A DNA stretch of 64,000 nt, taken from assembly GCA_028554795.2 (NCBI GenBank), contig CM068827.1:73426809-73490808 (forward strand), given 5' to 3'. The notes beneath the pieces were generated by a model. That model saw nothing but the letters and a program-made list of their open reading frames with translations. It had not been told where the DNA came from and made no database searches. The translations under genes and the position numbers were made by a program. The DNA is from Sinohyriopsis cumingii (Eukaryota; Mollusca; Bivalvia; Unionida; Unionidae). Below are positions 494 to 20,369 of this stretch, piece by piece (position 1 is the stretch's first letter; every line of letters starts with the position of its first letter).

Positions 494-532
494 ATCTCTT
501 TTCGAGAAATATGCGTGGCCCTGAAAAGGGCC
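494..532 (-). terminator. Histone-type 3' end 1 (in left TIR)
   Basis: On the minus strand the sequence reads GGCCCTTTTCAGGGCC (532 to 517). This is a 6-bp stem with a 4-nt TTTC loop and fits the metazoan replication-dependent histone stem-loop. After about 12 nt comes CGAAAAGAGA, like the purine-rich histone downstream element that pairs with U7 snRNA. The stem-loop starts 18 nt after the stop codon of the gene at 551-817. Confidence 0.8.
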
Positions 533-550
533 TTTGGTTTTCTTCTTCTT

Positions 551-817
551 CTAATTTCTTCTATTTCTCCACCAGCTTCTTATTTTCTGTCCTACACTTT
601 TTCTCTTCTTTTCTTTCTTTCTTTTCTCCTCCTCCTCTTCTTTCTTCTTCTTCTCCTCCTCTTCTTTCTTCCTCTTCTCATTTTCTTCTTCTTTTTCAAT
701 TTTTTCGTTCCATGCTCTCATCCTTATCCTTTCCTCTTCATCCTCCTTATCCTCCTTTATTTCTTTCAACAGATCACTGATGATTACCTTCATTTTTCTT
801 AAGTTGTTTATCTCCAT
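551..817 (-). CDS. Polinton accessory coiled-coil protein, cassette 1
   Basis: 88 codons if it starts at the ATG at 817; the ATG at 793 is an alternative. The open frame extends to 967, but the conserved upstream motifs shared with the neighbouring cassettes (829-853, 897-923) lie in that extension, so the start is placed after them. The protein is almost all Lys, Glu and Arg after residue 25 and should form a charged coiled coil. Its beginning (RKMKVIISDLLKEI) resembles part of the cassette 3 protein (RMLKITEDLIEEL), so the two look paralogous. No known domain is recognised. The stop is followed by a histone-type stem-loop in the TIR. Confidence 0.6.
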   Translation of the reverse strand: MEINNLRKMKVIISDLLKEIKEDKEDEEERIRMRAWNEKIEKEEENEKRKKEEEEKKKKEEEEEKRKKEKKRKSVGQKIRSWWRNRRN

Positions 818-828
818 CTTCACTCGAT

Positions 829-925
829 GAGGACGTGATGGAAAACTTCCCCCTAAGACATAAAAATTGATCTTACCTAGATCATGACCAAACAACGCGC
901 GGACGTGAAGGAAAACATACCCCAC
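829..925 (-). promoter_or_regulatory. Upstream double motif of cassette 1
   Basis: Two copies of a motif reading TGTTTTCCTTCACGTCC or close to it on the minus strand (897-923 and a variant at 829-853). They are separated by about 45 bp that contain TCATGATCTAGGTAAGATCA. The same two-motif block with the same spacer occurs upstream of cassette 2. Confidence 0.6.
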
Positions 926-1113
926 TTTTCTCATTTCATATAATAAAACCCAAACTATACTCTCCACATACGCTAAGAAACAATAAAGAAACTACTATTC
1001 ACACAAACTTTACATAAGCAGTTACAAACACAAACACAAACACTCGCACTATTAATAAAGAGTTAGTGTTTATATTCACACTACTCTACCTACACACATT
1101 GGCAAATTGATAG

Positions 1114-1154
1114 TTATTTCTTTTCTTGAGTAATGTGTAGCTCTGAAAAGGGCT
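1114..1154 (-). terminator. Histone-type 3' end 2
   Basis: Minus strand: AGCCCTTTTCAGAGCT (1154 to 1139), a histone-like stem-loop with one C.A mismatch in the stem and a TTTC loop. It is preceded by an A-rich run and followed by ACACATTACT and then CAAGAAAAGA, very like the classic CAAGAAAGA downstream element of histone genes. It begins 29 nt after the stop codon of the gene at 1184-1531. Confidence 0.75.
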
Positions 1155-1183
1155 GTTTTTTTTTGAACTTCATGGACACCTGG

Positions 1184-1531
1184 TTAATAGTGGCACCTTC
1201 CAGGCCTGGCGCCACATACACATCTCGTTCCCCAGTTACTTTTTACTTTTTTGGGGGAGAGAGCAGAGGCAGGATATGTGGCTTCAGAATCCCAATTTTC
1301 GGTTTCTGGGATTCTGAAATTTCTTCTTCTCTCTTTTTCCTCCTCCTCTTCTTTGTTTCTTCTCTCCTCCTCTTCTTTGTATCTTCTCTCCTCTTCTTTG
1401 TTTCTTCTTTCCTCCTCCTCTCTTATCCTTCCCTCCTCCACAATGGCTTCCGCGGCCAGTTCATTTAATATGCGCCTGGCATATTCCAGATGCACATGAA
1501 GTTCCAACAGTTTAGACAGTCTCGTGTTCAT
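1184..1531 (-). CDS. Polinton accessory coiled-coil protein, cassette 2
   Basis: 115 aa from the ATG at 1531. Residues 1-30 (RLSKLLELHVHLEYARRILN) resemble the start of the cassette 3 protein (KLAKLNEAYVNLHRVRHSL). Residues about 32-70 are a Glu/Arg repeat (RRNKEEE, RRYKEEE) that should be a coiled coil. The tail has several Cys. A TATA-like CTATATATTC lies about 55 nt upstream, directly after the shared promoter motif. A histone-type stem-loop follows the stop codon. No known family is recognised. The repeat may have grown by replication slippage. Confidence 0.6.
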   Translation of the reverse strand: MNTRLSKLLELHVHLEYARRILNELAAEAIVEEGRIREEEERRNKEEERRYKEEEERRNKEEEEEKERRRNFRIPETENWDSEATYPASALSPKKVKSNWGTRCVCGARPGRCHY

Positions 1532-1595
1532 TTTTGGTGTTGATCAATCAACAAGGGTAGCTAGACTGCCGAACGAGTTTGAATATATAGTGAAA

Positions 1596-1690
1596 GCGCG
1601 GACGTGAAGGAAAACATCCCCTAAAAACATAAAATTGATCTTACCTAGATCATGACCAAAAACAACAACGCGCGGACCTAAAAGAAACAC
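1596..1690 (-). promoter_or_regulatory. Upstream double motif and TATA of cassette 2
   Basis: Minus-strand motif TGTTTTCCTTCACGTCC followed by GCGC (1622 to 1596), with a weaker second copy at about 1690-1669 and the same TCATGATCTAGGTAAGATCA spacer as cassette 1. CTATATATTC at 1591-1582 lies just downstream and fits a TATA box for the gene starting at 1531. Confidence 0.6.
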
Positions 1691-1839
1691 TCACTCACTT
1701 TTTTATGCTACCCATCACTATTTTAAAATTTTTTATAAATCACTTCAATAGACTATTTACATACTCAAAGCAATCCAATCTAACCCCAAATCTACACCTC
1801 AAACACCAAAAAAACATTATTTTAATCTACTATCCACAC

Positions 1840-1980
1840 CAACTTACGTGAGCACTTACAAACACAAACACACAAACACATACCCTCACATTTTTTTAAA
1901 AAAGAGTTAGTGTTTATTTTCACACTACTCTACCTACACACATTGGCAAATTGATGGTTATTTCTTTTCTAGAGTATTGG
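1840..1980. repeat. Duplicated cassette spacer (copy of 1000-1135)
   Basis: About 130 bp are shared with 1000-1135: the AACACAAACAC run, AAGAGTTAGTGTTTAT, then CACACTACTCTACCTACAC and ATTGGCAAATTGAT. This shows that cassettes 1 to 3 arose by tandem duplication of a whole gene unit, including its 3' processing region. The ATTGGCAAATTGA part recurs at 18908 and, shortened, in both TIRs. Confidence 0.8.
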
Positions 1981-1999
1981 GGTAGCCCTGAAAAGGGCT
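1958..1999 (-). terminator. Histone-type 3' end 3
   Basis: Minus strand: AGCCCTTTTCAGGGCT (1999 to 1984), a perfect 6-bp stem with TTTC loop. It is followed by ACCCCAATACT and the purine-rich TAGAAAAGAAAT. The open frame of cassette 3 runs through this stem-loop, unlike at the other four sites. Confidence 0.75.
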
Positions 2000-2388
2000 G
2001 TTTTTTTTTGTCTTTTTTTGTTTGCTATGGCAATCTTTTTATAGTTTCTAAGAATGCGATGTCCTCTGAGGATAGACTTTCTGGCGATAGGTCTGCTTCT
2101 TCGGAAAGAGAAGAAGAACTCTTTGGTGTCGATACGACAATCGACAAAGCCTCTGTCAGGTTCAGGTTGCTGCTGCTGCTGCTGTTGCTGCTGTCTCTGA
2201 AGTCTGTACTTCTCTGTCCATTCTTCTTTTTCCCTGTTCATTTCTTCTCTGAAGAGCTCTTCTATCAGGTCTTCAGTGATTTTTAACATTCTCACATTCT
2301 CTATTTCTTCTGGCTTCGGTATCAGACTGTGTCTGACCCTATGCAAATTCACATAGGCTTCGTTGAGCTTAGCTAGTTTGGAGCACAT
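1969..2388 (-). CDS. Polinton accessory coiled-coil protein, cassette 3
   Basis: 139 aa from the first ATG of the frame at 2388; the open frame extends to 2412 without an ATG. It has an N-terminal conserved block shared with cassette 2, a middle helical block (LKITEDLIEEL) shared with cassette 1, a run of nine Gln at about residue 75, and a basic C-terminal third. A TTTAAGAA element and the shared CACGTCC motif (2455-2480) lie 50-90 nt upstream. The frame overlaps the histone-type stem-loop, so the true end may differ. Function unknown. Confidence 0.5.
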   Translation of the reverse strand: MCSKLAKLNEAYVNLHRVRHSLIPKPEEIENVRMLKITEDLIEELFREEMNREKEEWTEKYRLQRQQQQQQQQQPEPDRGFVDCRIDTKEFFFSFRRSRPIARKSILRGHRILRNYKKIAIANKKRQKKTALFRATPIL

Positions 2389-2454
2389 CTTCTTAGGAGG
2401 ATGAGTCGACAATGGATGGTTAGACTGGAAACAACCCCGGTTCTTAAAGTCAAA

Positions 2455-2480
2455 GCGCGGACGTGAAGGAAAACATCCCC
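2455..2480 (-). promoter_or_regulatory. Upstream motif of cassette 3
   Basis: Minus-strand copy of the shared motif, TGTTTTCCTTCACGTCC followed by GCGC. It stands 67 nt before the ATG at 2388 and about 10 nt upstream of a TTTAAGAA TATA-like element. Confidence 0.55.
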
Positions 2481-2608
2481 CACACGGTTTTCGAGCCGTA
2501 ACGTTCAGTGAGTGTCATGAGAGGGATAGTAAGAAATGAAAGAGCATCAATCCAACATTCTTATGGCTAAACAAAAGACAAAGGCATTTTTTTCAAAACA
2601 CAACATTT

Positions 2609-2614
2609 TTTATT
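2609..2614 (-). terminator. Polyadenylation signal of the minus-strand core gene cluster
   Basis: AATAAA on the minus strand, about 110 nt after the stop codon of the protease gene. It contrasts with the histone-type ends of the neighbouring cassette genes. Confidence 0.6.
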
Positions 2615-2725
2615 CAATAATCACTTAACACTAAACAACAACTCTAACATTTTTAACAATAATCCAACATGATAACATCAAACAGTTTTTTTCAAATCAC
2701 AAACATTTTTTTCTCAATTTACAGT

Positions 2726-3286
2726 CTACTTTAAACAGGGCTGACAACGTTGTGAATGAAATTGTGATTTCCACTGTTGGAAATCATTAGGCCATTGATG
2801 GACACTACGTTTCCTAGCTTGAGACAAAAGATAAGCATAATGGTCACAAAACGATCGATCTACTTTCACATCGTTTCTAGTAGAAGAACGAGGATCAAAA
2901 TGAGTCACTAAATGTTCTAAGGAATAGCCCAGGCTGCGATGATGCAGAAAATACACACAGTACTGTCCACACACCAAGGAATCTGTGCCTTGTAATTTCA
3001 CATTATTGAATCGGGTGGTTTGAGCATTTCTTCTCATAAAGTCGATGATATCGTCTTCCAAAGGGGGTAATCCGTACGAATCGAAATATTCCACACATCC
3101 TTCTTGAGGAAAGTAAACGGCTACCCAGTGGGTTCCTGGGAGATGACTGTCGTCCGTGTTGATCACGTAAGCTTGATGGTCTTTAGGTTTGCGATGAGGG
3201 AGTTCATCTTCAGCACAGACGACAGGATTCCAAGAAGCCGTATACGAACTGTGGTTCAAAAGGTAATAAAGTTCCCAGGTATCCAT
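2726..3286 (-). CDS. Polinton adenovirus-type cysteine protease (PRO)
   Basis: 186 aa from the ATG at 3286. It belongs to the adenain/Ulp1-like cysteine proteases that mature capsid proteins in Polintons and adenoviruses. The catalytic residues are visible in order: His in GTHWVAVYF (about residue 52), Asp in EYFDSYG (about 70) and Cys in SLVCGQYCVYFL (about 107), with the oxyanion Gln in LQGTD. Length and order fit the family and the copy looks whole. It is the last core gene of the minus-strand cluster, 15 bp after the Cys-rich gene at 3302-3787. Confidence 0.93.
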   Translation of the reverse strand: MDTWELYYLLNHSSYTASWNPVVCAEDELPHRKPKDHQAYVINTDDSHLPGTHWVAVYFPQEGCVEYFDSYGLPPLEDDIIDFMRRNAQTTRFNNVKLQGTDSLVCGQYCVYFLHHRSLGYSLEHLVTHFDPRSSTRNDVKVDRSFCDHYAYLLSQARKRSVHQWPNDFQQWKSQFHSQRCQPCLK

Positions 3287-3301
3287 TTGTGTGTTTTTTC
3301 T

Positions 3302-3787
3302 TCACAGGTAATAATAAGTCGTCAATTCGATCCTGACTTTTTGCTTGAAAATGTCTGACAAGTAACCGTTTCTTCGTTTCGTCTCCTCACTCTGATTCAG
3401 GAGAGCTTCGATACGATGGATCTCTTGAGTGGTTACTGGTGGACAAGAATGTTCACGCAAGTCTTTATACCACTGGTGCAACACGTCTTTGTCCGAGATG
3501 AGACTCCAAGCTTCGTCCAGATACTCGTCCAATTTTTCTTCTTGACTTAACATTAGGCATTTATCGTGTTGAATTTGACTGGGATGATCGTTTTGACATC
3601 CATGGCAATTTTTCTTGATCAATTCCGTCATTTTTTCGACCAAGTGTTTGGCAAAACAGGAGACTAAATGGGCTTCTTGTTCTGGCCATCTCGACTTCAT
3701 CATGATCACTTCTTCTTTTTCCACGGTCTCCTTACATTTCATCTCCAAAGTTTCTCCACTAGGTAAAGAGGGATAACAGTCTTCCAT
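3302..3787 (-). CDS. Conserved small Polinton protein with CxxC...H...C motif
   Basis: 161 aa. The middle holds CHGCQNDHPSQIQHDKC, a likely zinc-binding signature that I recall from uncharacterised proteins next to capsid genes in animal Polintons. The rest is helical with charged residues. It lies between the protease and the major capsid gene, 5 bp from the latter, suggesting a virion or assembly role, but the function is not known. Confidence 0.75.
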   Translation of the reverse strand: MEDCYPSLPSGETLEMKCKETVEKEEVIMMKSRWPEQEAHLVSCFAKHLVEKMTELIKKNCHGCQNDHPSQIQHDKCLMLSQEEKLDEYLDEAWSLISDKDVLHQWYKDLREHSCPPVTTQEIHRIEALLNQSEETKRRNGYLSDIFKQKVRIELTTYYYL

Positions 3788-3792
3788 GGTTT

Positions 3793-5109
3793 CTAGTAAT
3801 CTAGGATGACTTCTCTCAAACTGTTGATTTCTATCGTATTATCGAATTCTGCATACAGGATGACGTTCACCGTTTCATCAGGGATTCGGTCTTTAAACTG
3901 AATTTCCACACGAATCTGGCCGGATTTTATAGGGTGGAAATGTCCCTCGTCGCTACCTTGGTCAGGAGTGAAATCGAAAGCCCACAAAGCGTAGCCTCCA
4001 GCATAATCCTCGTACGTAATGCCGTGACTGGTATTGGTTCCTAACTGTCCGGTGGCTTCGTACAGGGACAAGTACGATCTCAAGTAATTCTTCTTGTCAA
4101 AGTCGGGTTCGAAAGGTCGGGTACACAAGGTTTTGCCATCGCGACTGACTTCGATCTTGGACACGCCAAAGTGTTGAAAGTAGAAAGGATTTTTACCCAA
4201 ATCTCCGTTGAAGGCTGTATTCTCGACGATACCAACGATCAAACGTTTGGGTAACTGTCCTTGGAACAGATGATCTTCGATCATGGATCGCTGTCCCTTG
4301 GGAATGGTGAAGGTTTTCACTTCCACGCGTCGGATCGGATACTTAGCGGTCGTTCTGCTCAACGTTTGACTGATGTCGTTTCCCACTTTAGGTAACACTT
4401 CCACGCGTCGTACGTAGAGCCTGGCTTCCTCGATGACAGTTTTGCAAGCGGTACTACCTATCAAATGGAAAGCGGCACTCCTACGATTCAGTCTCAGGCG
4501 AACATTCACCCCGTTCAGCAAATATTTCTCTTGCAACCACATGTCCAAATGCAAACGATCCATTAGTTCTAAACTCTGTCCATCTTTGATTCTGTTTCTT
4601 CGTTCTACAAATCCATCATTGTTTGGTGTTTTGCTTGCATCAGTTTCGAATCTTTCAAACTGCTCTGCTTCGTCAGCTTCAGATAGCACACAGGCATTGA
4701 GATGAGTGTTCTTGGCGTCTATTCCGTACGTCAAGAGATTTTCCAGGTACGCTCGATAAGGGTAAGTATCCATGCTGCTGCTGACCAGTTTGTTGTTCAA
4801 GTACAAGTCCACTCCGCTAAACAAGGAATGCATGAAATTGTTGACGGGAGCTATTACCTCATCGCCATCTAGGGTTGAATTGTCCTCATCGACAAGTTTG
4901 ACTTTCAAGTACAAGTAACTGCTATTCAAATCGATGTAATCTTCGGGCTGTCCTTTGATTTCAAACTCGATGGGAGCTGAGGCTGTCAATGAGGAGACGG
5001 GGTGAAATTCCACCCACTGGGATTCTTGCATGGTCATCATGGTGGGGGGGGGCATGGCAAACAGATCCAGTTCCGTCTTGGAACAAGCGCAAGACTCTCG
5101 GTGCATCAT
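3793..5109 (-). CDS. Polinton major capsid protein (double jelly-roll)
   Basis: 438 aa from the ATG at 5109. It matches the animal proteins annotated F54H12.2-like, which are Polinton major capsid proteins: LFAMPPPTMMTM, WVEFHPVSSLTASAPIEFEI, YIDLNSSYLYLKVKLV, NNFMHSLFSGVDLYLNNKLV and DTYPYRAYLENLLTYG in the first 130 residues are family hallmarks. The length is typical and the frame is intact. It is predicted to form pseudo-hexameric capsomers of an icosahedral shell. Confidence 0.92.
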   Translation of the reverse strand: MMHRESCACSKTELDLFAMPPPTMMTMQESQWVEFHPVSSLTASAPIEFEIKGQPEDYIDLNSSYLYLKVKLVDEDNSTLDGDEVIAPVNNFMHSLFSGVDLYLNNKLVSSSMDTYPYRAYLENLLTYGIDAKNTHLNACVLSEADEAEQFERFETDASKTPNNDGFVERRNRIKDGQSLELMDRLHLDMWLQEKYLLNGVNVRLRLNRRSAAFHLIGSTACKTVIEEARLYVRRVEVLPKVGNDISQTLSRTTAKYPIRRVEVKTFTIPKGQRSMIEDHLFQGQLPKRLIVGIVENTAFNGDLGKNPFYFQHFGVSKIEVSRDGKTLCTRPFEPDFDKKNYLRSYLSLYEATGQLGTNTSHGITYEDYAGGYALWAFDFTPDQGSDEGHFHPIKSGQIRVEIQFKDRIPDETVNVILYAEFDNTIEINSLREVILDY

Positions 5110-5125
5110 TTTTTTTGTCTCTTTC

Positions 5126-5488
5126 TCAATAATCGAAAACGTCTAAGTCTCGAACGGTTCTTCTTTTCTTGGCCTTTCTAACATGAAGTCTGGTGAAAGG
5201 GTGTTTTCTTCGTCGTCTCTTTCTGCCTTGTCCTTGCTGAATGCCTGACTCGGTAGCGTGTAGGGCATTTATAGGTGTGTTTCGTCGGCCTAAAATGTCT
5301 TTGCCCGTTTGCAGCAAGACATTTTTGCCTGCCCTCATGAAGGCTTCTTTAGGGTTTTGTTTGTCGATGATGACATTTTGGAGAAATTCTTTGCCTTGCG
5401 TCAGTGCCGCATCTTTCAAGGCGTGCAATCCGCGTGTCACCATCGGTTTCAACACCGGAGCCACCGAACGAAAGGCCGATTTTAACAT
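5126..5488 (-). pseudogene. Polinton core/pX-like basic protein, looks broken
   Basis: The open frame is 120 aa: a hydrophobic/helical N-terminal part (LKSAFRSVAPVLKPMVTRG), then a very basic stretch (GRKRRRRKHPF) and a C-terminus KKRRTVRDLDVFDY. It resembles the small adenovirus-pVI/pX-like proteins encoded between the two capsid genes in Polintons. The copy seems to have about one break. It lies 16 bp from the major capsid gene and is probably a DNA-binding or membrane-active virion component. Confidence 0.65.
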
Positions 5489-5545
5489 ATCTCCTAAACC
5501 GTGTCCTCGCTGTCAAGCAACCCCTCGGTACACTGGATACATGAC

Positions 5546-6469
5546 TTACGAGTCGTGAGAGAACCGTTTTCGAAAATGGACTTTCACCGTGACTTTTCCT
5601 TTGGTGAATGGAATATTTTGCCCCAAATCTCCTTTTATAGTAATGTTGACCGTGTCCAAATACGAATTGCTGACAGGCAAATAGTGAGGATGGACAAATT
5701 CGCGGTGGACGTGGTAAGTGTTTCCACCTTCCTCGTCAGCGTTCGCGGCAGAATCCACTTTGAAAGGAATGACACGCAGTAACGGCACAGAGGTGTGTCC
5801 CACTACGTTGTACTCCACCACATCGGAATACACGAACATCAAATTCAGTCCTTGATTCAGTTCTACTGGGGTACGAAATAACTTGCTAAAAGACTCGTTG
5901 TCGCAAACGATGGGTAATTCGTTTTTCTTCATCATGGCCATTCTCATGTTCATGTCTCCGCCCAACATGTCATACAATTCAGGACAAAATAAAATGGACA
6001 TGATTTTACTTCGTTCAAATTTCATCGAGAAGCGACGAGCTGCTTTGTGGTACTCCATGGCGACACTTTTGTTGACATGCTCCAAAGCTTTCAGAAACAC
6101 GCCATTAAACCTGGTGGCTATGGTGCTGACCAAATGTTGACCACTAAAATAATAGCCTGGGGGAATGAACAAGTGATAGATGATGTACTTTTGTGTACGG
6201 GTTTTCTTGTCATATTTGACATTGCCATCCATCCACTGTTGCATTTGCTCGTCATGAACTTCCACATCAAAAAAATTTTGATTGGGAAGGACATTGAGGA
6301 CTTGGGTCGGGTGAATGATTTCTACTAAAGCCACTTCCCAATGGGCTTCGTGATCTAAGGGGATGCCCTGAGGTAATTTAGCCGTGTAACAGCACAACGT
6401 GTTGTGGGGAAACACCTCCATGGAACTGTCACTGGGTAAGGTTAAGTAAAATTGGTTTTGGTGACTCAT
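5546..6469 (-). CDS. Polinton minor capsid (penton-like) protein
   Basis: 307 aa from the ATG at 6469. The start FYLTLPSDSSMEVFPHNTL, followed by CYTAKLPQGIPLDHEAHWEV and ALVEIIHPT, is typical of the Polinton minor capsid protein, a single jelly-roll expected at the five-fold vertices. The C-terminal half includes YNVVGHTSVPLLRVIPF and VNITIKGDLGQNIPF, also conserved. The frame is intact. Its start overlaps the stop of the upstream membrane-protein gene by 4 bp. Confidence 0.88.
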   Translation of the reverse strand: MSHQNQFYLTLPSDSSMEVFPHNTLCCYTAKLPQGIPLDHEAHWEVALVEIIHPTQVLNVLPNQNFFDVEVHDEQMQQWMDGNVKYDKKTRTQKYIIYHLFIPPGYYFSGQHLVSTIATRFNGVFLKALEHVNKSVAMEYHKAARRFSMKFERSKIMSILFCPELYDMLGGDMNMRMAMMKKNELPIVCDNESFSKLFRTPVELNQGLNLMFVYSDVVEYNVVGHTSVPLLRVIPFKVDSAANADEEGGNTYHVHREFVHPHYLPVSNSYLDTVNITIKGDLGQNIPFTKGKVTVKVHFRKRFSHDS

Positions 6470-6882
6470 AATTCCAGAGTTCTGTGGCTGTCCGAGGGGT
6501 TACTGGACGGCAGAGGCGTGACTCCTCCCAAAATGGGGTTCTGGTTATGGTTGGAGTGGTGACTGACACTGGCACTGGACACAAGGTTCCCGTGGTTCCC
6601 GTTCGAGAAGAATTTCAGGGAGGGATTGGGAAGCAGGTAACCGATGCAACTGCTCAATAAAATGGTCCACAATTGTTTGTCTCCTTGTTGCAAACTCAAA
6701 TTGGCAATGGCTGTCCCGATGACACAATACACCACGAAGATTTGGCAGAAAAAGACGATTTGCGTTTTAGGCACACGTTCTCCACACCACACCCACAAGG
6801 GTTGTTTTTGTAAATCTTGCACAGAAGAACTAGGTGAAGAAGGAGTGGTCGACGTAGCTGCGTCTGCTGTGTGAAAGGGCAT
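6466..6882 (-). CDS. Polinton two-helix membrane protein
   Basis: 138 aa from the ATG at 6882. Two hydrophobic segments are seen: IVFFCQIFVVYCVIGTAIA (about 43-62) and LWTILLSSCIGYLLPNPSL (about 71-90). The spacing and the GYLLPNPSLK end match an uncharacterised membrane protein common beside the minor capsid gene in animal Polintons. The tail is Ser/Asn-rich. It is possibly a virion membrane or entry factor. A TATAAAAAG box lies only about 12 nt upstream of the ATG. Confidence 0.7.
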   Translation of the reverse strand: MPFHTADAATSTTPSSPSSSVQDLQKQPLWVWCGERVPKTQIVFFCQIFVVYCVIGTAIANLSLQQGDKQLWTILLSSCIGYLLPNPSLKFFSNGNHGNLVSSASVSHHSNHNQNPILGGVTPLPSSNPSDSHRTLEL

Positions 6883-6887
6883 GATGG

Positions 6888-7997
6888 TCACTTCTTTTTA
6901 TAGTCGATGACTTGCGAAGCGTCGATCCAAGAATCAAAACTGGGTGGATATCCTTTCCAACGTACTTTGACTTCTTTGACACGTCGTTTGCCCACTTTAC
7001 GGGTTCTGCGTTCGAGAATGCTTTCGATGTCGTACACGTCGTCTTCTTTTTTGGTGACACGTTGTACCTCGGGCAAATAAAACGTTCCTTTGAGCACTTC
7101 TCCGTTCATGTCTTCCAATTTATAGACGGCAGGATGACGGCCATACACTCGTCCAGTGACACGAAACAATTCGGTCGTCCAGTTGGGTAAGTAACCTTTG
7201 TCGAAAGTGCGTTTGGTTTTGCCAATGCGCACCCAATCTCCTACGGCCAACATTCCACTTTTCTTGGGGACAGCCCTCGTCGGGGACGTACCAAACAGAC
7301 GCTCAAACACCAGCACTTCGTTGTCGGGAGTCACGTCTTGCGGGGCACGTCCGATGCTTCGATGGTAAGATTGGTTGTACGCTTGCACCAGGTGCGGTAA
7401 GATGTCGATGTACTTCAGAGTGTGGTGATGCGTAAAATATTTCCACATGCGTTCTTTCAAAGTGCGTTGAAAACGTTCCATTATTGTTGCTTTGGTTTCG
7501 GGATTATCGGTGGTAAAAAAATGAATGTCACGTTTCTTTAATTCTTTTTGGTAAGCTTGGTTCAGAAATTCGGTGCCTTTGTCCGTTTGCCATCGAAGAG
7601 GGTGACGACCACTTTGTTTCAACACCCGTTGCAGGGCTCGCACTAACTCGCTGCTCGATTTGGAAGTCAAGGGCACGACCCAGGCAAATTTGGAAAAGAC
7701 GTCGATGACACAAAACAAATATTTGTAGCCACGATTGTAGCTGGCCAAATGAGAGACATCGGCTAAATCGGCTTGCCATTGATGATCGATGCCTTCCACT
7801 CGGGTGCGACTTCTGGCAAACTTGCGTCGAATGGGTTTGTGTAAAGTGTAGGTAGCTTGTTCTTGTAACCATCGTTGCACTTGAGGTAAACGGAGACTTT
7901 TCAGTCGAGTTTTGGCAGCACGATACAATTTTTGAACTCCTGCGTAACCTGCAGGATGGGAGGGATCGTAGTAAATGCTGGCTAAGACTTTTTCCAT
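6888..7997 (-). CDS. Polinton retroviral-type integrase with chromodomain (INT)
   Basis: 369 aa from the ATG at 7997; the open frame runs on to 8114 but the extension overlaps the next gene. The DDE triad is visible: Asp in WQADLADV, Asp in WQTDKGTEF and Glu in KATIMERFQRTLKERM. The first 60 residues (YYDPSHPAGYAGVQKLYRAA) are the usual Polinton N-terminus. The last 60 residues form a chromodomain (YDIESILERR, VRWKGYPPSFDSWID) that may bind modified histones and steer integration. The frame looks whole. Confidence 0.93.
   Translation of the reverse strand: MEKVLASIYYDPSHPAGYAGVQKLYRAAKTRLKSLRLPQVQRWLQEQATYTLHKPIRRKFARSRTRVEGIDHQWQADLADVSHLASYNRGYKYLFCVIDVFSKFAWVVPLTSKSSSELVRALQRVLKQSGRHPLRWQTDKGTEFLNQAYQKELKKRDIHFFTTDNPETKATIMERFQRTLKERMWKYFTHHHTLKYIDILPHLVQAYNQSYHRSIGRAPQDVTPDNEVLVFERLFGTSPTRAVPKKSGMLAVGDWVRIGKTKRTFDKGYLPNWTTELFRVTGRVYGRHPAVYKLEDMNGEVLKGTFYLPEVQRVTKKEDDVYDIESILERRTRKVGKRRVKEVKVRWKGYPPSFDSWIDASQVIDYKKK
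6895..6902 (-). promoter_or_regulatory. TATAAAAA element before the membrane-protein gene
   Basis: Minus strand, overlapping the stop region of the integrase gene and only about 12 nt before the ATG at 6882. The short distance leaves little room for a leader, so it may be fortuitous or drive a leaderless message. Confidence 0.35.
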
Positions 7998-11699: not shown

Positions 11700-12180
11700 A
11701 ATCCGTGGCATGGCAACTTGATTTTATAGTGTCTTTGTTTCGGAAGCAATAAAGGTAATTTCTAACCAAACATGTTCGTTCTCCAGTAGGGAATTTAAAT
11801 GTTACATACTGTAACTGAAACGTCAGAGTTTGTCTAGATGTTTCGTCTTTTTCTAAGCAGATTCCATGTAACAAATGTTGGTAATCCTTTAACTCGTCTT
11901 CCTCAATACGTTACAGTAAGTGAATCTCGAAGTAACCAAAATTGCGAACGTCTAGTCCATCATCATCCCCAAACTGAAAGTGTTCAACAAGGTCTGACCA
12001 CTGAAAAAATTTCTGACGAATCAGTCCTCTTATACGATTCAGGTACCAGTGGTTAAAGATCTGGTGACGTAACGGATGCAATTGTTCTTTACGTTTCACT
12101 TGTATTTTCACCAGCTCTCGGTAAATCCTTTCTCTCAACTCCTCAGGCAAGCCCAAAATGTTCTCTTGTAAAGTATCCAT
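11683..12180 (-). pseudogene. F-box-like family copy A, looks broken
   Basis: It starts at the ATG 12180. The first 60 residues (ENILGLPEELRERIYRELVK, then KRKEQLHPLRH) are nearly the same as in copies B and C, and its C-terminal region resembles that of copy C (TGERTCLVRNYLYCFR versus DTEVKPCLCKQYISC). It seems to have about one break. The LPxELRxxIYREL core resembles an F-box or F-box-like motif, which would recruit SKP1/cullin ubiquitin ligase; the match is by eye only. Confidence 0.55.
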
Positions 12181-12415
12181 AAGTATATACACTGTTTTTG
12201 GAATCGTTGGGTGGTGGCCAATAGTCTCGTTTAACTTTGTGCCTAATGTAATATCCACTCATAATCAGTCTTCTTGTACTTTGGAACAGAGCATAATTTA
12301 AAAACGGATGAATCACTTTGAGTTTGCGTTTCACTTGTATTTTGATCAGTTCTCGGTAAATGCGTTCTCTTAACTCCACAGGCAAAGCACGAATGTTCTC
12401 TAGCAAAGTATCCAT
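12143..12415 (-). CDS. F-box-like family copy B
   Basis: 90 aa from the ATG at 12415. Residues 1-31 (ENIRALPVELRERIYRELIK, IQVKRK) match copies A and C; the rest is shorter and diverged. It may be a truncated paralogue. It overlaps the start of copy A by 38 bp. Confidence 0.5.
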   Translation of the reverse strand: MDTLLENIRALPVELRERIYRELIKIQVKRKLKVIHPFLNYALFQSTRRLIMSGYYIRHKVKRDYWPPPNDSKNSVYTYGYFTREHFGLA

Positions 12416-12427
12416 GAATAGGTCAAA

Positions 12428-12883
12428 CTAAATCCTCTTTGGTCTGACACAAGATATGTACTGTTTGCACAAACATGGTTTTACTTCAGTGTCGAATTTA
12501 AATCCTTTAGTCACTAATTTGCACATTACAATTCGTTCAGAAGTTTCCTCTTTCACTAAGTTGACATTGTGTTCAAGATGTTGGTAATTCGTTAACTCTT
12601 CCTCTGGAATTCGATGCAGTAAGTTTACAATGATGTAGGTAGAATCGTCCATAACAAACCAATCCTTTTTAAAACTAGAGGATCGTTCATCAATGTCTCT
12701 CCGATGGAACACTTTCAATTGAATCAATCCTTGTATAGCCTTCAGGTACCAGTGGTTCAAACACCGGTGACGTAACGGATGCAATTGTTCTTTACGTTTC
12801 ACTTGTATTTTGACCAGCTCTCGGTAAATGCGTTCTCTCAACTCCACAGGCAAAGCACGAATGTTCTCTTGTAAAGAATCCAT
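12428..12883 (-). CDS. F-box-like family copy C
   Basis: 151 aa from the ATG at 12883, the longest copy. It has an N-terminal F-box-like helix pair (ENIRALPVELRERIYRELVK), a basic linker (KRKEQLHPLRHRCLNHWYLK), and a C-terminal part ending with several Cys (KPCLCKQYISCVRPKRI). Because all copies keep the same N-terminus and vary downstream, the family looks like a partner-recruiting module with variable target binding. A viral F-box protein would redirect host protein degradation; that is inference. Confidence 0.55.
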   Translation of the reverse strand: MDSLQENIRALPVELRERIYRELVKIQVKRKEQLHPLRHRCLNHWYLKAIQGLIQLKVFHRRDIDERSSSFKKDWFVMDDSTYIIVNLLHRIPEEELTNYQHLEHNVNLVKEETSERIVMCKLVTKGFKFDTEVKPCLCKQYISCVRPKRI

Positions 12884-12905
12884 GAACAGATTATGGTAAG
12901 TTACT

Positions 12906-13163: not shown

Positions 13164-13175
13164 AGGAAACGAATA

Positions 13176-13538: not shown

Positions 13539-13593
13539 CTTGTTCGCTCGGTCTTGGTAGTCACAATGAACTATCGATCTTGACCATAGCCCC

Positions 13594-13601
13594 TTTTTAT
13601 A
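13594..13601 (-). promoter_or_regulatory. TATAAAAA box for the gene at 13176-13538
   Basis: TATAAAAA followed by GGGG on the minus strand, 55 nt upstream of the ATG at 13538. It overlaps the end of the upstream BIR gene. Confidence 0.6.
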
Positions 13602-14055
13602 CTAGTCGCAATGCAGTCTCCAGCTTGTACATCTTTCCTTTTTTACGTTTTCTATGTCCTGTTCTGGAAGGTACCGTCTCTAAGGTACCGTCAACATTGT
13701 ACCGTAGTGTGATGGGTGGAAAGGCCATAGAAAGGTAAGGGCAGTGCGGAGACCATCGAGTATGTTCCAGAATAGCTGAATCTTTATAGATACATAGATC
13801 CATTCGTAACTTCAGTCCGCAAGCGAAACACTGTACCTCGTATCCCAATCCTGACTCAGGTCCCAAGTAGACAAATCCTGTTCTAGCTAAAACATGCGAA
13901 GAAGGTAATCCTTCCCTATCCGTAGGCCATTTCTGAAACGTGTCCAATCGACGGGCACAATCACAATAGTCAGGTAAGAAGACTGGAAAATGGTAGGGTT
14001 TGAACTTGGAGTTCTCATCGGGTTTCTCACTCGATTCTTGCTGTGGCGAAGTCAT
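13597..14055 (-). CDS. BIR domain (IAP-like) protein, copy 1
   Basis: 152 aa from the ATG at 14055. One BIR domain is seen: DYCDCARRLDTFQKWP (about 29-44), LARTGFVYLGPESG (about 56-69), VQCFACGLKLRMD (about 74-86) and AILEHTRWSPHCPYL (about 94-108), with all zinc ligands (CxxC, His, Cys) present. The C-terminus is basic, without RING or CARD. Single-BIR proteins of DNA viruses can inhibit apoptosis of infected cells. A TATAAAA box lies about 36 nt upstream. The frame looks whole. Confidence 0.85.
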   Translation of the reverse strand: MTSPQQESSEKPDENSKFKPYHFPVFLPDYCDCARRLDTFQKWPTDREGLPSSHVLARTGFVYLGPESGLGYEVQCFACGLKLRMDLCIYKDSAILEHTRWSPHCPYLSMAFPPITLRYNVDGTLETVPSRTGHRKRKKGKMYKLETALRLV

Positions 14056-14078
14056 CTTTCTGGTGGGTAATTATCCTC

Positions 14079-17000
14079 TTACAACCAATGTTTTATACCA
14101 ACGTGTCCATACGGTAAGGTGAAATGATTGGGAAGTCGCACTCGCTTCTGGTACACGATTTGATAGACTTTTTCCAAGGGTCGACTGACGATGTGGTGAG
14201 TGGGTAAACGTACAATCTTGTTCGGTTGATAGGTGGTCACTTTAAAGTTTCCATCCTCTCCCGATTGCAAGGCTTCTTTCAATACCCCAAAGTTGACCAC
14301 ACGACTGGTACGATGATTCAGAGTCAGTCCTTTCACTTTGCACGTCGTGTGCACTTCTCCTTGTTCGTCCCGGTATTCGTAGCCGTAATTTTTGGGGCCG
14401 CCACTGACGAAACTTAGAATCTTGTCGTCGGGATGCTCGTCTGTCCAGGCTCCTAAACGGTCTCCTTCGATGTCAGGGTGCTGTTGACTCGGGTGATGAA
14501 TGTAAATGCAACTGTCGGTGTCAAAGTACAGGCATGAGCTGTCACGTAAGCCGCAATGATGACATTTCCAAAAGGGTCGTCTTGTACAAAGTCCAGATCT
14601 TCTTCGTAATTGACCAAGATCAAATCCTCGCGAACGACGTCCACGTGTTTCATGTATTTGGTTTTGTCGTGAATCATCTGGAAGTAGCGGGAAGGTTCTG
14701 TCAAATATTCCGTCTTGGGTAAACACGGTCGTTGTGCCATTTTACCCCACAAGCAATTTAACATCACTTTCGCAAACGATCGCCTGCCTTCGTTTTTCTC
14801 GATGTGGTCTAAAGAGATGCCTTCTTGTTCATAGTATTTCTCTTTGAATTGTATTTGGTCTTCGGGAGTGTGACACCAGGAAGGATAGCCGCTGGCTTCT
14901 TGTTTCAGTTTCAAAAAGGCATCCACGTAGTCAGCGAAAATGCCTTTCTGACTGGGATCACCCTTGTGGTACTGTTGTGTCATAGGAAAGTGGCAAATTT
15001 CGTACACTTCTAACAGTTGGTATCCCATGTCCAGAGCTTTGAACAATTCTACGCTGACCCAGGTTCCCATCAAGGCACGTTCTTCCTGGCTGTGATGGCA
15101 AGGTTGGTCCTGGTTGCACGTTTCGGCACAAGTACGGCACAAGGGAAACATCAGTTTGCCTTGACAATGGTGAGGTAAGACGGGATGGTATAGGTTCGTG
15201 GGAGGCAAAACTTTGCACTTGATCAAGCCTTCGTATTGTCGAATGTTTTTCAGGTCGATGTGTTCCGTCAACAATTGCGGGTGCCCTACAGGAAAGCGAC
15301 AATATTTGCACACGTAGGGATACAGCGAACACACGTCCAAGTATTTGATTTCTTCTCCTTTCTCTTCGTCGGCTTGGTACAACAAACAGGTGGCATTGGT
15401 CCTTCCTCCGTACAAACTATCCCTCGGGTTCAACGGGTCCATGAACTGGTAACTTTCCACGAGGCGTTTAAACTCGGGATCGGTTTTCATACGGTGATCG
15501 TACTCGTGTTCACACATTTCCACCACTTGGTATCCTTGCTGTTCTAACTTTAGGCGCCGCTGACAAGTGTCCTGGTACAAGTCTTCCATGGTCCGTTGCA
15601 AAAACTGATTTTTAGTGCTACGATCAGGGTAACAGACGGGACATCCGTAAAATAAGCAACCGTTAAACTCGTACACGATCTTGGGGTTTTCTAAGTCCCA
15701 GCCATCTACCGAATACGTTCCGATGGTCTTTTCACCCCCTCCGTTCCGGGCATGCTGAATCCATTTGTCTTCCTTGTCGCACAAGTAATGTAACCAACGT
15801 AGGGCTTTGACCGAGTATTGACGTTTGACAAAGTTGGTCGTTTGAGGGCTAATGACAGCCACGGTGTTTTCAGGCATGAATCGTTGTCGATACACTAAGG
15901 AACACGCTTTGGCAATGGTACAAGCTTCTTTCAAAGGATCGACCCCTCCGTGTTCCATGAACAGTTCTCGAAATTTTCCACAGCAACGCCGTAAAATGTC
16001 CACGTCGGAACGACAATACTTTAGCATTTCTTCCTGAAAGTCGAAAGGGTCAGAGGCGTGAGTCTGGTACCAAGCGTAGAAAGCTTCTCGTTGTTCGGTA
16101 CGCATGTTGTCGAGGTCGTAATAGTGAGCCTCAGGAAAATGGGGTAGAACGGCGTGTTGATTGGCTTCCGTATTGAAAAAGTGAGGAAAATAACCTTTAG
16201 CCATTTCTGTCATTCCAAAAGTTTTAGGCATTCGACTCAAAGGCATGGCCAAGTAACTCATCGAATCTTTAAACTGCACTTGTCCCACTTGCATGAAAAT
16301 GATTTTGGCTCCGTTCAAAGTGACTTTAGGACGTTCGGTGCCATGTTCTGTATAGTACCTCAAAAGAAACTGTCCATCGTATCCGGAGAAATTGTGAGCC
16401 ATCACTGTGGCATGACGATGACAATCTCCGTAATGTTCGATGTCCTCTTGGCTCCACGTCTTGTCGATGGGGTCTAAGACCCATTGGGCAAAATCGGCTA
16501 ACGTGTTCGGTCCCCGAAAGATTTTTTCACGCCCTCCAGGAATCTTGCTGCAATGAGGGCAATGACTGAAGATAGGTTCTTGAATGCACTTCTCGCACGC
16601 TCGATGAGCCACGCAGAAATTAGGGATGTGAATGCCGGTCTCTTGCATGCATTCGAAATCGAAAAAGATGAAATTGCCTTTCTTCTTGTAACTGTCCTCT
16701 TTCTCTGGTGGGGGTTGGTATTTTTGCACATAACATTGATGTTCCAAGTCCACGATGTGGTGACAAAAGTGACATTTTTTCTTTCCTCGACATACGTGTG
16801 CCTTGGCAGTATTGGTACATATGCCTTGTCCACAGGTAGGGCACAATCTCAGCAGTTGACAAGCACATTTCTTCTGTGAACCTTGCGTTTTCAAATGTTG
16901 TTGGTAACAGGTAGGGCTGAAAAACGTGCGCAGACAAGTTGAACAAGGCACTGGTTCTTCGCTCAGACAGGGTGGAGAGGCCAAACATCCTGGGCATTTC

Positions 17001-18070
17001 ATTCCACAATGCTTGTGTTGCTCTCGATTGTTATAACCATAATCACATTTCTCACAATAATAACTGTATCCCAGGAATCCGGTGATACTGGTAATGGTAT
17101 CGAAATGGTCATCGTGATAATAAACATGAATGTATTTTCCGTCCTTAAAATCTTGGCCTCGAAACAACAGAGGCCCGCGCATTTCTTGAGGGTGCACTTT
17201 CAAGGTGTATCGTGGAGCTAGGGCATCTTGCAATTTTTGCATCTCAGGAATGCCACAGGGTGTGTCTTTGGACAGTCCGGCTTGTTGTAACAGGAGTTCT
17301 GCTTCGTTTCGTTGTTTGGCTCGATAGGAACGTTGAATAGTGTTCCAGGCTCTTTTCCATTCTGCCGTGTCGTTCTTGTTGGCATAGGTTCGTCCCACCA
17401 CGATGGCTCGGGCTAAGCACATCTGGTCTTGAGGGTTGTTAATTCGGACGAGACTCTTTTTGGTGCTGCGAAGATCGTCCACCAATAACATCCTTTTGCG
17501 TCCAGTCCCTTGAGGAGGAGAGACGTGGGCCATTTTCAGTGTGGCTTTACCATCGGTGATGTCAAACTGGTCATTAGATTGTTGTACGTGTTGAATCTTG
17601 TCCATGACTTTGGAAGGGGTTAGTTCTGCGGGTCTGCTAAACTCGATCCAAACAGGGGATTTCAAGCTGTCGTGATCTATGGATAGTGTCAAGCGATCGT
17701 CTTCTTTGGCTTGACATTGTCGCTTGAGTGAGGTGAGCAAAGAATCCCACATCTCGGTGATAAACCCTTCTGCTTTCTCCAATGGTACGTCAGCCTTGAA
17801 ATCTTTAAAATTCACTGTGTAGGTGTAAGCCGTGGTTCTAAATTTTCTAGAGGAGCGCTTTTCCGTCTCTCGAATGGAATAGTATTTTTCAGGGTTGACT
17901 AAGGGTGACGAACTTGGTTTAGAGGGTTCGGATTCTGGTTCACTCATGTCCTCTTCAAAATCACTGGCATGAATTTGTGCCAAGATTTCAGCCCTGGTTC
18001 GAGGCGATAGATCACGTTTCTGCCTCTTACTTTCTTCTTCTTTCTTCTCAAATGAATAGGATCGTTTCAT
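14079..18070 (-). pseudogene. Polinton protein-primed DNA polymerase B (POLB), looks broken
   Basis: About 1,330 codons including a long N-terminal extension. A Cys/His-rich zinc region (CEKCDYGYNN, CPTCGQGICT, CHFCHHIVDLEHQC) precedes the 3'-5' exonuclease motifs FFDFECMQETG, AHNFSGYDGQFLLRYY and YCRSDVDILRRC. Polymerase motifs follow: YLDVCSLYPYVC (motif A), KVMLNCLWGKM (motif B) and FDTDSCIYI (motif C). This is the family B, protein-primed type of Polintons and adenoviruses. It appears to have about one break. The promoter (TATAAATT at 18117-18124) is back to back with that of the zinc-knuckle gene. Confidence 0.95.
14091..14097 (-). promoter_or_regulatory. TATAAAA box for the BIR gene
   Basis: TATAAAA on the minus strand, 36 nt before the ATG at 14055, between POLB and the BIR gene. 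Confidence 0.55.
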
Positions 18071-18116
18071 CTTGAGTGCAAAACGTCAAATGACTCAAGT
18101 TTAAACACCATAGACT

Positions 18117-18150
18117 AATTTATAGTCATGGCAGACCAGCGTATATAAAA
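18117..18150. promoter_or_regulatory. Divergent TATA pair: POLB (-) and zinc-knuckle gene (+)
   Basis: TATAAATT on the minus strand at 18124-18117 faces POLB (ATG at 18070). TATATAAAA on the plus strand at 18142-18150 faces the gene starting at 18205. The two start codons are 134 bp apart, so replication and zinc-knuckle genes may be co-regulated as early genes. Confidence 0.7.
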
Positions 18151-18204
18151 GGGTGTGTGTCTTGTCCTTTCACTATTCATTTCACTCTCAAGCCGAGCAC
18201 AACG

Positions 18205-18700
18205 ATGGAAGAGACTAACCAAATCGAACGTTTCGTCAGAGCTTTGCGAGGGGTCATTAGAAAATTCTCTTCAGATCAGCCCACGGACTACTCTCCTTCC
18301 TTTCGAGATAAAAGTCAAGATACTTGCTATATCTGTCAGAAGAAAGGGCATTGGTCTTCAGAGTGTCCAGACCGTCAAAAAAGAAAAAAAAACAGGGGCT
18401 AAAAAAGACAAAAGTAAAGATACCTGTTATTATTGTAAAGAAAAAGGACATTGGTCTCCAGATTGCCCAAAAAAGAAACAAGAGGATTCAGAAGAAAAGA
18501 GGAATTCTTCAGAAGAAGAGAGGGATTCTTCAGAGGAAGAGAGGGATTCTTCAGAGGAAGAGAGGGATTCTTCTGAGGAAGAAAGAAGACAGGTGAAGAA
18601 AAAGAAACAGGAGAAAAAGAGAAGAAGGGAAGAAAGCGAGGAGGAAGAAGAAGAGGAAAAGAGTGTGACGGTGAAGAAATTCAAAAAACAGAGAGACTAA
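18205..18700 (+). pseudogene. CCHC zinc-knuckle protein with Ser/Glu repeats, looks interrupted
   Basis: The ATG at 18205 is 55 nt after a TATATAAAA box. Two zinc knuckles are visible, CYICQKKGHWSSEC and CYYCKEKGHWSPDC (CX2CX4HX4C), typical of nucleic-acid-binding proteins. After them come four copies of a 7-residue DSSEEER unit (21-bp DNA repeat, 18520-18580), then a Lys/Arg/Glu-rich end. It seems to have about one break. A role in binding single-stranded nucleic acid during replication or packaging is plausible. AATAAA at 18786 follows. Confidence 0.7.
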
Positions 18701-18785
18701 ACAAGGAGAAAGAAGAAGTCAATGAACTTTTAATTAAAGTGTTCTGTTGTGAATTGTGAATTGGATTGTAAAAAATGGAGAAAAG

Positions 18786-18791
18786 AATAAA
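18786..18791 (+). terminator. Polyadenylation signal of the zinc-knuckle gene
   Basis: AATAAA about 85 nt after the stop codon on the plus strand. No histone-type stem-loop accompanies this gene. Confidence 0.6.
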
Positions 18792-18928
18792 TTAATTATA
18801 CAAGGTAAGTGTCTTTGAGTTTTGATTTTAAAATAAGAAGCTACACTCACGCACTCATACACAGACACGTACTACAGGGGTAAAATGGGTTGTTTTTTTC
18901 ATTTGAGTTATTGGCAAATTGAAATTAT

Positions 18929-18967
18929 ATTTCTTTTCGAGAAATGTGGGTGGCCCTGAAAAGGGCC
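18929..18967 (-). terminator. Histone-type 3' end 4
   Basis: Minus strand: GGCCCTTTTCAGGGCC (18967 to 18952) followed by ACCCAC, the usual histone stem-loop flank, then ATTTCTCGAAAAGAAAT as the downstream element. It starts 25 nt after the stop codon of the gene at 18993. This is the copy closest to the textbook histone consensus. Confidence 0.82.
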
Positions 18968-18992
18968 TTTTTATTTTGGTGTAGGGGTGAGT

Positions 18993-19412
18993 TTAAGCAA
19001 TCAACTTTAGCTGCCTTAAGCCTTTGCCACGGCCAAGGCCTACTTCTGAACTACGTAATGTTGATGATGATGATGATTGGGTTGAAATCACTAAGGGTGG
19101 TACGGTAGGCTTAGTCACAGGGTTAACGTGTTTAGCTCGGGAAGGTCGTATTCTCTTCGGTCGTAATAAAGAAGTCTGATACATTTGTTTCAGACTTCTT
19201 AACTCCGCTAAAATGTCCAACAGTACCGTGACCGTTTGATTTTCACCCTCTTGTTTCTTTGCTGCTGCTACTTCTTCTTGCTGTTGTTGCTGTTGTTTTT
19301 TTCTTACCTCTTCTTCTTGCTGCTGTTGCTGTAGGAGAAAAGCTTGTTCCGCTTCCTTTTGTTGTATAAATTTCTCCAATTCTTCTTTCTGTCTCTGTCT
19401 AAAATTCTCCAT
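18993..19412 (-). CDS. Polinton accessory Gln/Glu-rich coiled-coil protein
   Basis: 139 aa from the first in-frame ATG at 19412; the open frame reaches 19574 upstream without an ATG, so an upstream exon or non-AUG start is possible. Residues 1-55 are a Gln/Glu coiled coil with two poly-Gln runs, followed by a helix (VTVLLDILAELRSLKQMY) and a basic Ser-rich tail. A TATATAGA box lies at 19621-19628. It resembles the left-end cassette proteins in composition and in having a histone-type 3' end, so it may belong to the same gene group. Confidence 0.5.
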   Translation of the reverse strand: MENFRQRQKEELEKFIQQKEAEQAFLLQQQQQEEEVRKKQQQQQQEEVAAAKKQEGENQTVTVLLDILAELRSLKQMYQTSLLRPKRIRPSRAKHVNPVTKPTVPPLVISTQSSSSSTLRSSEVGLGRGKGLRQLKLIA

Positions 19413-19620
19413 TTGCGGTAATGAAGAAGGTAACGAAGGTTCCGGAACAAATTCTTGCGAGGAGAGAAAATCCACAAAATCCCAATTCACCTCTTCTGAA
19501 AGTAAGTCCTTGTTCCCTTGGGCGGTCTCCCCTGTTGGTGCACCCCAATGTATCGTTTTCTGAATTTCCGTCACGTTGAATCACTGTCGCATAGATTGAC
19601 TGCACACAAGCGCTAGCGAA

Positions 19621-19628
19621 TCTATATA
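19621..19628 (-). promoter_or_regulatory. TATA box of the Gln-rich gene
   Basis: TATATAGA on the minus strand. It is 114 bp from the oppositely oriented TATAAATA at 19742, so the two right-end genes also share a divergent promoter region, which contains a TGACGTCA-like site near 19635. Confidence 0.55.
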
Positions 19629-19741
19629 GACCAACTGACGTCACAGACTACTCTCTTCGGATTGGATGCGCGCTGACTGAATTTTGTAACGCGTGTTCGG
19701 ATTGGTCAACAAACTCAATCCGTTTCAATCCTTCCTCTACC

Positions 19742-19749
19742 TATAAATA
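19742..19749 (+). promoter_or_regulatory. TATA box of the right-end plus-strand gene
   Basis: TATAAATA, 45 nt before the ATG at 19794. It fits a transcription start near 19772. Confidence 0.6.
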
Positions 19750-19793
19750 AGCGCAGTTCACTGCATTGATTCACCTGTTCTCGTCGCTTCAAG

Positions 19794-20027
19794 ATGTGGA
19801 CCGATGTGCAATCTTCTACGCTTGTGTCTTCAATGATGTTCTGGTCGGACATACCCATGTATGTCCGATCCAAGTGGACCGTTGTCCACAGGACAAACAC
19901 CAGTCTGTGGATACGTAGGATCTACGTAGAAAGACAAGGATGCCTCAAAAGAGTCCTGATTTACGGGCCAACAGTGAGACGCAGCCTAAGGACAAGAAGA
20001 AGACCAATGCGGTGCCCTTTATGTTAA
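19794..20027 (+). CDS. Polinton right-end small protein
   Basis: 77 aa from the ATG at 19794, with many Arg and Trp and a C-terminal RRRPMRCPLC. No homologue is recognised. The TATAAATA box upstream and a histone-type stem-loop 25 nt after the stop codon (inside the right TIR) argue that it is expressed. Among the genes with these 3' ends it is the only one on the plus strand. Confidence 0.5.
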   Translation: MWTDVQSSTLVSSMMFWSDIPMYVRSKWTVVHRTNTSLWIRRIYVERQGCLKRVLIYGPTVRRSLRTRRRPMRCPLC

Positions 20028-20046
20028 TGGATACATTAACATAAAC

Positions 20047-20369
20047 CCAAAGGCCCTTTTCAGGGCCCCCATATTTCTCGAAAAGAGAATGACTTTTCAA
20101 TTGCCTACCCCTTTTTTTAAAAAAATTTAAAAAAAAAAAAATCCCATATTCAATTCCCCTTGTCCCTAAACAAGCCCAAACTCTATTCCCCATGTTAAAT
20201 TCCCCTTGTACGTAAAGTGACCCACAATTTTTCGCCATATTAAATTTCCATTGTACGTAATCTGACCCACGATTTTTCGCCATGTTAAATTTCCATTGTA
20301 CGTAATCTGACCCAGGGGGGGTCTGTAATGCTAATTCCCATTGTACGTAATGTGCCCCTACTTACTACT
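20047..20369. repeat. Right terminal inverted repeat of the Polinton
   Basis: Inverted copy of 207-537. It carries the same TACGTA-containing repeats, A/T block and stem-loop. The stem-loop here serves the plus-strand gene at 19794-20027. Confidence 0.95.
20052..20089 (+). terminator. Histone-type 3' end 5 (in right TIR)
   Basis: Plus strand: GGCCCTTTTCAGGGCC (20052-20067), then CCCATATTTCT and CGAAAAGAGAA. It is the TIR mirror of 494-532. It stands 25 nt after the stop codon of the gene at 19794-20027, so the same TIR element ends a gene at both ends of the transposon. Confidence 0.8.

Follow-up and report, generated by a model that had tools for sequence, protein, structure and literature searches.

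How does a virus-like transposon end the messages of the short genes at its margins? This question is raised by a 64,000-nucleotide stretch of the genome of the bivalve Sinohyriopsis cumingii (contig CM068827.1, positions 73,426,809 to 73,490,808; hereafter the window, at its full length), in which a complete Polinton spans positions 207-20369. An earlier note on this DNA had claimed that five genes of the element, here called A to E, carry the stem-loop that closes metazoan replication-dependent histone mRNAs, an observation that we confirm in part. We find it reasonably probable that all five serve as functional histone-type 3' processing signals, used by the Polinton for small terminal genes that are probably early or regulatory, and that these genes yield mainly S-phase mRNAs without poly(A).

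Results

The five 16-nt sites lie where the earlier note had placed them, on the strands claimed, and all are exact (Table 1). With up to three mismatches allowed, the window yields these five sites and nothing else; at this tolerance, shuffled sequences gave 1.79 matches on average, and five or more matches in 1 of 100 shuffles. The number of exact sites expected by chance is 0.00014 per 64 kb under an order-1 model. Every site is oriented correctly relative to the preceding open reading frame (ORF), and at four of the five the hairpin follows the stop codon as closely as had been claimed, with gaps of 18 nt (A), 29 nt (B), 25 nt (D), and 24 nt (E). A purine run of 9-11 nt begins at position 12-14 beyond the hairpin at all five sites, which confirms the downstream element that the note had likened to the binding site of U7.

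As a test of the resemblance to histone messages, the window was scanned at E ≤ 10 with the Rfam covariance model Histone3 (RF00032, gathering score 34). All five sites matched, and no other match was found in the window at this threshold. Two sites exceed the gathering score, with E-values of 1.4e-9 and 7.8e-8. The likeness to the metazoan histone 3' end extends to the 16-nt hairpin with its 6-bp stem and TTTT or TTAT loop, the nearby stop codon, the A-rich 5' flank, the ACCCA-like 3' flank, and the purine-rich element soon after. Unlike in histone messages, the genes here belong to a virus-like transposon and contain no histone domain in Pfam, and their use of stem-loop-binding protein (SLBP) and U7 is putative. 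On these sequence features we assign the signal to the histone type of 3' end.

The same arrangement occurs in a second Polinton. A profile search of genome contigs, based on a capsid alignment of 24 of the 120 listed homologs and the window protein, found three contigs with a capsid relative (L001, L002, and L003), all in bacterial metagenome-assembled genomes. L003 (8.9 kb) contains an rve integrase, PolB, and a capsid gene; its capsid is 31% identical to that of the window, and BLASTP gives 35% for the integrase and 41% for a stretch of PolB. Its Histone3 match scores 35.8 bits (E = 6.9e-7), above the gathering score. The hairpin has six of six pairs and a TTAT loop, is followed after 12 nt by the purine-rich AAAAAAGAGA, and lies 28 nt beyond the stop of an 89-aa ORF with two C2H2 zinc fingers. 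This gene is the outermost outward-facing gene of L003, just inside the terminal repeats. The motif ACAATGG occurs 10 times in the terminal stretch of L003 beyond the hairpin and nowhere else in L003; each terminal inverted repeat (TIR) of the window element has three copies in matching orientation. From the ACAATGG-rich end, AAAAAAGAGA, the hairpin, and the outward gene of L003, we infer that a layout of terminal repeat, purine element, hairpin, and outward gene recurs. Between the zinc-finger gene and the integrase, L003 also has an ORF (1189-1695, + strand) for a 168-aa homolog of TATA-binding protein (TBP; PF00352, E = 1.2e-27; PDB TBP chains to E = 7.1e-20), so that by sequence L003 appears to be a Polinton carrying its own TBP.

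The search of other Polintons that the note had proposed thus finds the hairpin in L003; L001 and L002, both seen incompletely, gave no Histone3 match. Trained on the five window sites and the L003 site, a six-site model gives its own training set 65-73 bits, and the next best score among 377,665 bases from 30 sources is 20.4. In a viral contig collection, capsid scans gave no confirmed relatives and an integrase scan none among 103 stretches; PolB found 20 weak relatives (22-31% identity), in which hairpins were sought with the six-site model and a regular expression. Four hairpin patterns gave 0, 0, 6, and 1 matches in this collection, which we take as chance. In a phage collection, PolB had just four matches, all to archaeal viruses.

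The five sites are not independent cases. Hairpin, purine element, and an additional TTTGCCAA-like block are common to all of them, and the sequence upstream is mostly different; the pattern reads as one 3' module copied behind different genes. The homology between the TIRs ends near positions 541 and 20042, at the 5' flank of the hairpin. The module is thus the innermost part of both TIRs, and sites A and E are mirror copies. Five independent origins can be ruled out.

Homolog searches covered genes C and D. For gene C, all nine candidates proved to be homologs and were aligned; seven of the nine terminate at a common point. The reading frame in the window continues past this point and seems to have lost the stop codon there. 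The shared end would lie about 40 nt ahead of the expected hairpin position. Of 27 candidates for gene D, 19 proved to be homologs, mostly of about 200 aa; one alignment included 13 of them and another 16. The frame of gene D is open 5' of the window ATG, yet has no Met where its relatives start. The protein has an acidic and aromatic stretch on its N-terminal side, a Q-rich middle, a leucine-rich stretch, and a basic KR-rich stretch, a composition that suggests a nuclear regulator; Pfam gave no support for this reading. BLASTP of A and B against one homolog of C (best E 0.02 and 4.8, respectively) did not demonstrate that they are protein paralogs of C. We also considered a displaced host histone cluster and rule it out, since Pfam found no histone in the ORFs tested.

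Upstream of the hairpin genes, an exact 19-nt motif, TTTTCCTTCACGTCCGCGC, occurs near or ahead of the starts of A, B, and C (three copies, none in 100 shuffles); at gene B it immediately precedes a TATA-like box. Adenovirus early promoters have ATF sites, and a CRE/ATF site (CRE, cAMP response element) in the promoters of the hairpin genes would fit an early regulatory role. In L003, three of the four TGACGTCA copies lie within 346 bp ahead of the zinc-finger gene; the window has a single copy, between D and E.

The contrast that had been drawn with the core genes, which were said to have AATAAA, is weak: this signal occurs within 300 nt for 5 of 22 non-hairpin entries (the protease, the 208-, 116-, and 107-aa ORFs, and the zinc-knuckle region). 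By the same comparison, genes A, B, and E have none.

The carrier itself is a Polinton. TCTGTA flanks both ends, and the element begins with AG and ends with CT. It has the TIRs (about 330 bp) and short target duplication (6 bp) of a Polinton/Maverick, together with PolB and a retroviral-type integrase (PF03175, PF00665, and PF00385 in Pfam). With Polintons/Mavericks and adintoviruses it shares PolB, the rve integrase with chromodomain, a capsid homolog, a weak adenain-like protease match, the TIR, and the 6-bp duplication. The PolB ORF apparently stops short of a C-terminal region that is present in L003 PolB. The capsid ORF has no Pfam match but 791 homologs, of which the best 120 were listed; the animal-named ones among the matches listed are bivalve "F54H12.2-like" proteins, a family that we take to be a double jelly-roll capsid. 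No Pfam match to a packaging ATPase exceeded the cut-off among the tested ORFs, and the gene that we presume to encode one is assigned by resemblance alone.

The element also carries a BIR (inhibitor of apoptosis) domain protein (13597-14055, - strand, Pfam). Three similar ORFs of 89, 90, and 151 aa, which begin with MDTLQENI, MDTLLENI, and MDSLQENI and have no Pfam match, stand in tandem at 11911-12883 (- strand). At 18205-18700 (+ strand), a zinc-knuckle ORF (PF00098) precedes a repeat-rich acidic stretch in which 21-nt units are repeated in tandem. The flank contains a non-long-terminal-repeat retrotransposon (24696-29451, + strand) with a reverse transcriptase (PF00078) and, by eye, ORF1-like and endonuclease-like pieces. 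A long AT dinucleotide palindrome at 44236-44337 gave microRNA matches below gathering, which are probably spurious.

Table 1. Positions of the hairpin sites, the genes, and other features of the element in the window
Feature	Positions	Strand	Remarks
Stem-loop, site A, histone-type	517..532	-	38.8 bits, above gathering
Stem-loop, site B	1139..1154	-	21.6 bits; one broken pair
Stem-loop, site C	1984..1999	-	29.3 bits
Stem-loop, site D	18952..18967	-	43.4 bits, above gathering
Stem-loop, site E	20052..20067	+	32.2 bits; mirror of A in right TIR
Purine-rich downstream element, site A	495..503	-	GAAAAGAGA
Purine-rich downstream element, site B	1117..1127	-	AAGAAAAGAAA
Purine-rich downstream element, site C	1961..1970	-	AGAAAAGAAA
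Purine-rich downstream element, site D	18930..18938	-	GAAAAGAAA
Purine-rich downstream element, site E	20080..20089	+	GAAAAGAGAA
Gene A ORF	551..934	-	charged, at most 127 aa; start position uncertain
Gene B ORF	1184..1531	-	115 aa
Gene C ORF	1969..2388	-	conserved family (homologs)
Gene D ORF	18993..19412	-	conserved family (homologs)
Gene E ORF	19794..20027	+	77 aa
19-nt motif near gene A	897..915	-	
19-nt motif, gene B	1596..1614	-	
19-nt motif, gene C	2455..2473	-	
Intergenic region of divergent genes D/E	19413..19793	unstranded	TATA-like boxes on both sides, ATTGG boxes, sole window TGACGTCA at 19636
Target-site duplication TCTGTA, left	201..206	unstranded	element edge, by eye
Target-site duplication TCTGTA, right	20370..20375	unstranded	element edge, by eye
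Left TIR	207..541	+	site A hairpin and purine element are its innermost feature
Right TIR	20042..20369	-	TIR comparison
Adenain-like protease (PF00770), weak	2726..3286	-	Pfam, 16.2 bits (cut-off 21.3); AATAAA 112 nt downstream
Major capsid protein homolog	3793..5109	-	homolog search
rve integrase with chromodomain	6888..7997	-	Pfam
PolB (PF03175)	14453..18070	-	Pfam

Discussion

How might these signals work? The SLBP/U7 pathway is regarded as serving replication-dependent histone mRNAs. In the host pathway, as outlined in PMC7614891, the hairpin is bound by SLBP, the downstream element is paired by the U7 small nuclear ribonucleoprotein (snRNP) in a duplex expected to span about 15 nt, and CPSF73 makes the cut; SLBP levels increase ahead of S phase, and the protein supports not only processing but also export, translation, and stability. 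The Polinton would use this machinery for five genes: three (A, B, and C) stand side by side at the left, and D and E form a divergent pair at the right. Host SLBP would bind the hairpin, U7 snRNP would engage the purine-rich element, and cleavage by CPSF73 would fall a few bases beyond the hairpin. The resulting messages would be short and would lack a poly(A) tail, and their production, export, and translation would be concentrated in S phase, when SLBP is abundant. Since one copy of the module lies in the inner end of each TIR, each new insertion would bring an outward-facing terminator at both ends. What the sequences show directly is the signals with their spacing and direction, two of the five gene families, and the recurrence in L003; use of SLBP and U7, lack of poly(A), S-phase timing, and early expression are the proposed part.

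A different account, which we consider rather unlikely, accepts the signals as genuine and captured from a host histone gene, but sees in them compact terminators that work independently of the poly(A) machinery and have no tie to S phase, acting for example in SLBP-rich eggs or embryos. The sequence evidence for processing fits this account equally well, and within the TIRs the signal would keep transcription from exiting the element. On the other hand, the hairpin genes seem to stand apart as a group at the ends of the element and have upstream motifs in common, a hint of regulation rather than of saving space only.

Improbable in our view is the idea that the palindrome acts at the DNA level (as a site for integrase, a terminal protein, replication, or a transcription factor, or as a cruciform) and resembles the histone hairpin by accident. 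Two copies do lie within TIRs, where such sites are expected, but three of the five lie outside, and the orientation always agrees with the preceding gene. A DNA palindrome would also have no need of the loop, the ACCCA-like 3' flank, or the purine element at a nearly fixed distance, features that score with Histone3 and are found again in L003. A very improbable alternative is that the end of a host histone gene entered an ancestral element and was then duplicated as a nonfunctional remnant. The common ancestry of the five copies and some decay in this element would be consistent with such a history, but the loop, most of the stem, and the purine element are kept while the upstream flanks differ, and the distant Polinton L003 has a hairpin at the matching place. 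Chance or a composition artefact can be ruled out by the exactness of the sites, the expectation for exact sites, and the Rfam E-values including that of L003, although the shuffles gave some matches and a loose regular expression (at least five of six pairs) found five further ones in L002, L013, L022, and L024; the sparse pattern matches in the viral contig collection also speak against it, as do L024-L029, which have no full hairpin at the place of the pattern and no six-site-model match above 17.4 bits, and L030, which has no Histone3 match.

Several observations weigh against histone-type processing of the messages of A to E. Three of the five sites remain under the Rfam gathering score, so that the covariance check came out fully in favor of the claim at two sites. 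The hairpin shape that had been claimed is complete (six of six pairs) at four sites, but site B forms five of six pairs, with a C.A mismatch. The site C hairpin falls within the window ORF, which runs through the stem-loop, and several genes in this copy appear decayed. Since a single module gave rise to all five sites, separate evidence comes from two elements alone. The evidence from the homologs of C and D is at the protein level, where a 3' hairpin would not show. Two of the three capsid-bearing relatives have no Histone3 match, and these are weak negatives, as both are seen incompletely: L001 starts inside PolB with no recognized terminus, and L002 is represented by 21 kb of a 31.9-kb contig with short ORFs. 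Pairing of the purine elements with a human U7 5' end is no better than in shuffles at all six sites (fractions 0.11-0.81), which says little about the host U7. CCAAT/ATTGG boxes are common (47 in the first 20.4 kb) and support little. Finally, AATAAA stands just 5' of the hairpin in D and beyond the hairpin in C, and ATTAAA occurs 143-259 nt past the stops of A, C, D, and E, so that polyadenylation is still possible for these genes. Taken with these points, the proposal of histone-type 3' ends is partly supported: the Rfam model supports it in full at two of the five sites, and the proposal is strengthened by L003 and by the two conserved hairpin-gene families.

Related systems have been described. 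The hairpin of Mimivirus is not known to be of the histone type. Mimivirus is a DNA virus that likewise defines its mRNA 3' ends by hairpins, but there a viral enzyme cleaves the hairpin, and polyadenylation follows (PMC4402537). By description, the hairpin gene of L003, a short Polinton gene that encodes C2H2 fingers, is like the "Ziftr" zinc-finger genes of adintoviruses (PMC11071296); the accessible portion of that account does not mention 3' ends of these genes. For another bivalve, Lucina pectinata, histone mRNAs are reported to have a stem-loop near the stop codon, with purine-rich elements near the hairpin in four genes only, at unusual positions (PMC6210712). Among the open-access matches listed, none described ends of the histone type in Polintons, adintoviruses, or other transposons, and the terms looked for in PMC11071308 did not occur there. 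The combination of a histone-type 3' end with a Polinton is the new part.

Conclusions

If the histone-type signals of this Polinton work as proposed, a DNA-replicating, virus-like transposon would make non-histone use of the SLBP/U7 pathway. A broader and more tentative possibility is that animal Polintons and adintoviruses have long had histone-type 3' ends as an integral component: the TIRs would each hold, at the inner end, a portable, outward-facing terminator, and a switch would divide S-phase-coupled, poly(A)-less early regulatory genes with CRE-type promoters from polyadenylated late capsid genes, possibly aided by an own TBP as in L003. For the element, the obvious benefit would be expression while host DNA synthesis runs, as it could link its hairpin genes to the phase in which the host copies DNA. 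Such processing would also explain how terminal genes can do without poly(A) signals when they end inside a TIR, and RNA-seq that selects for poly(A) might then overlook early genes in both Polintons and adintoviruses. The timing of Polinton replication would become testable through a known cell-cycle pathway.

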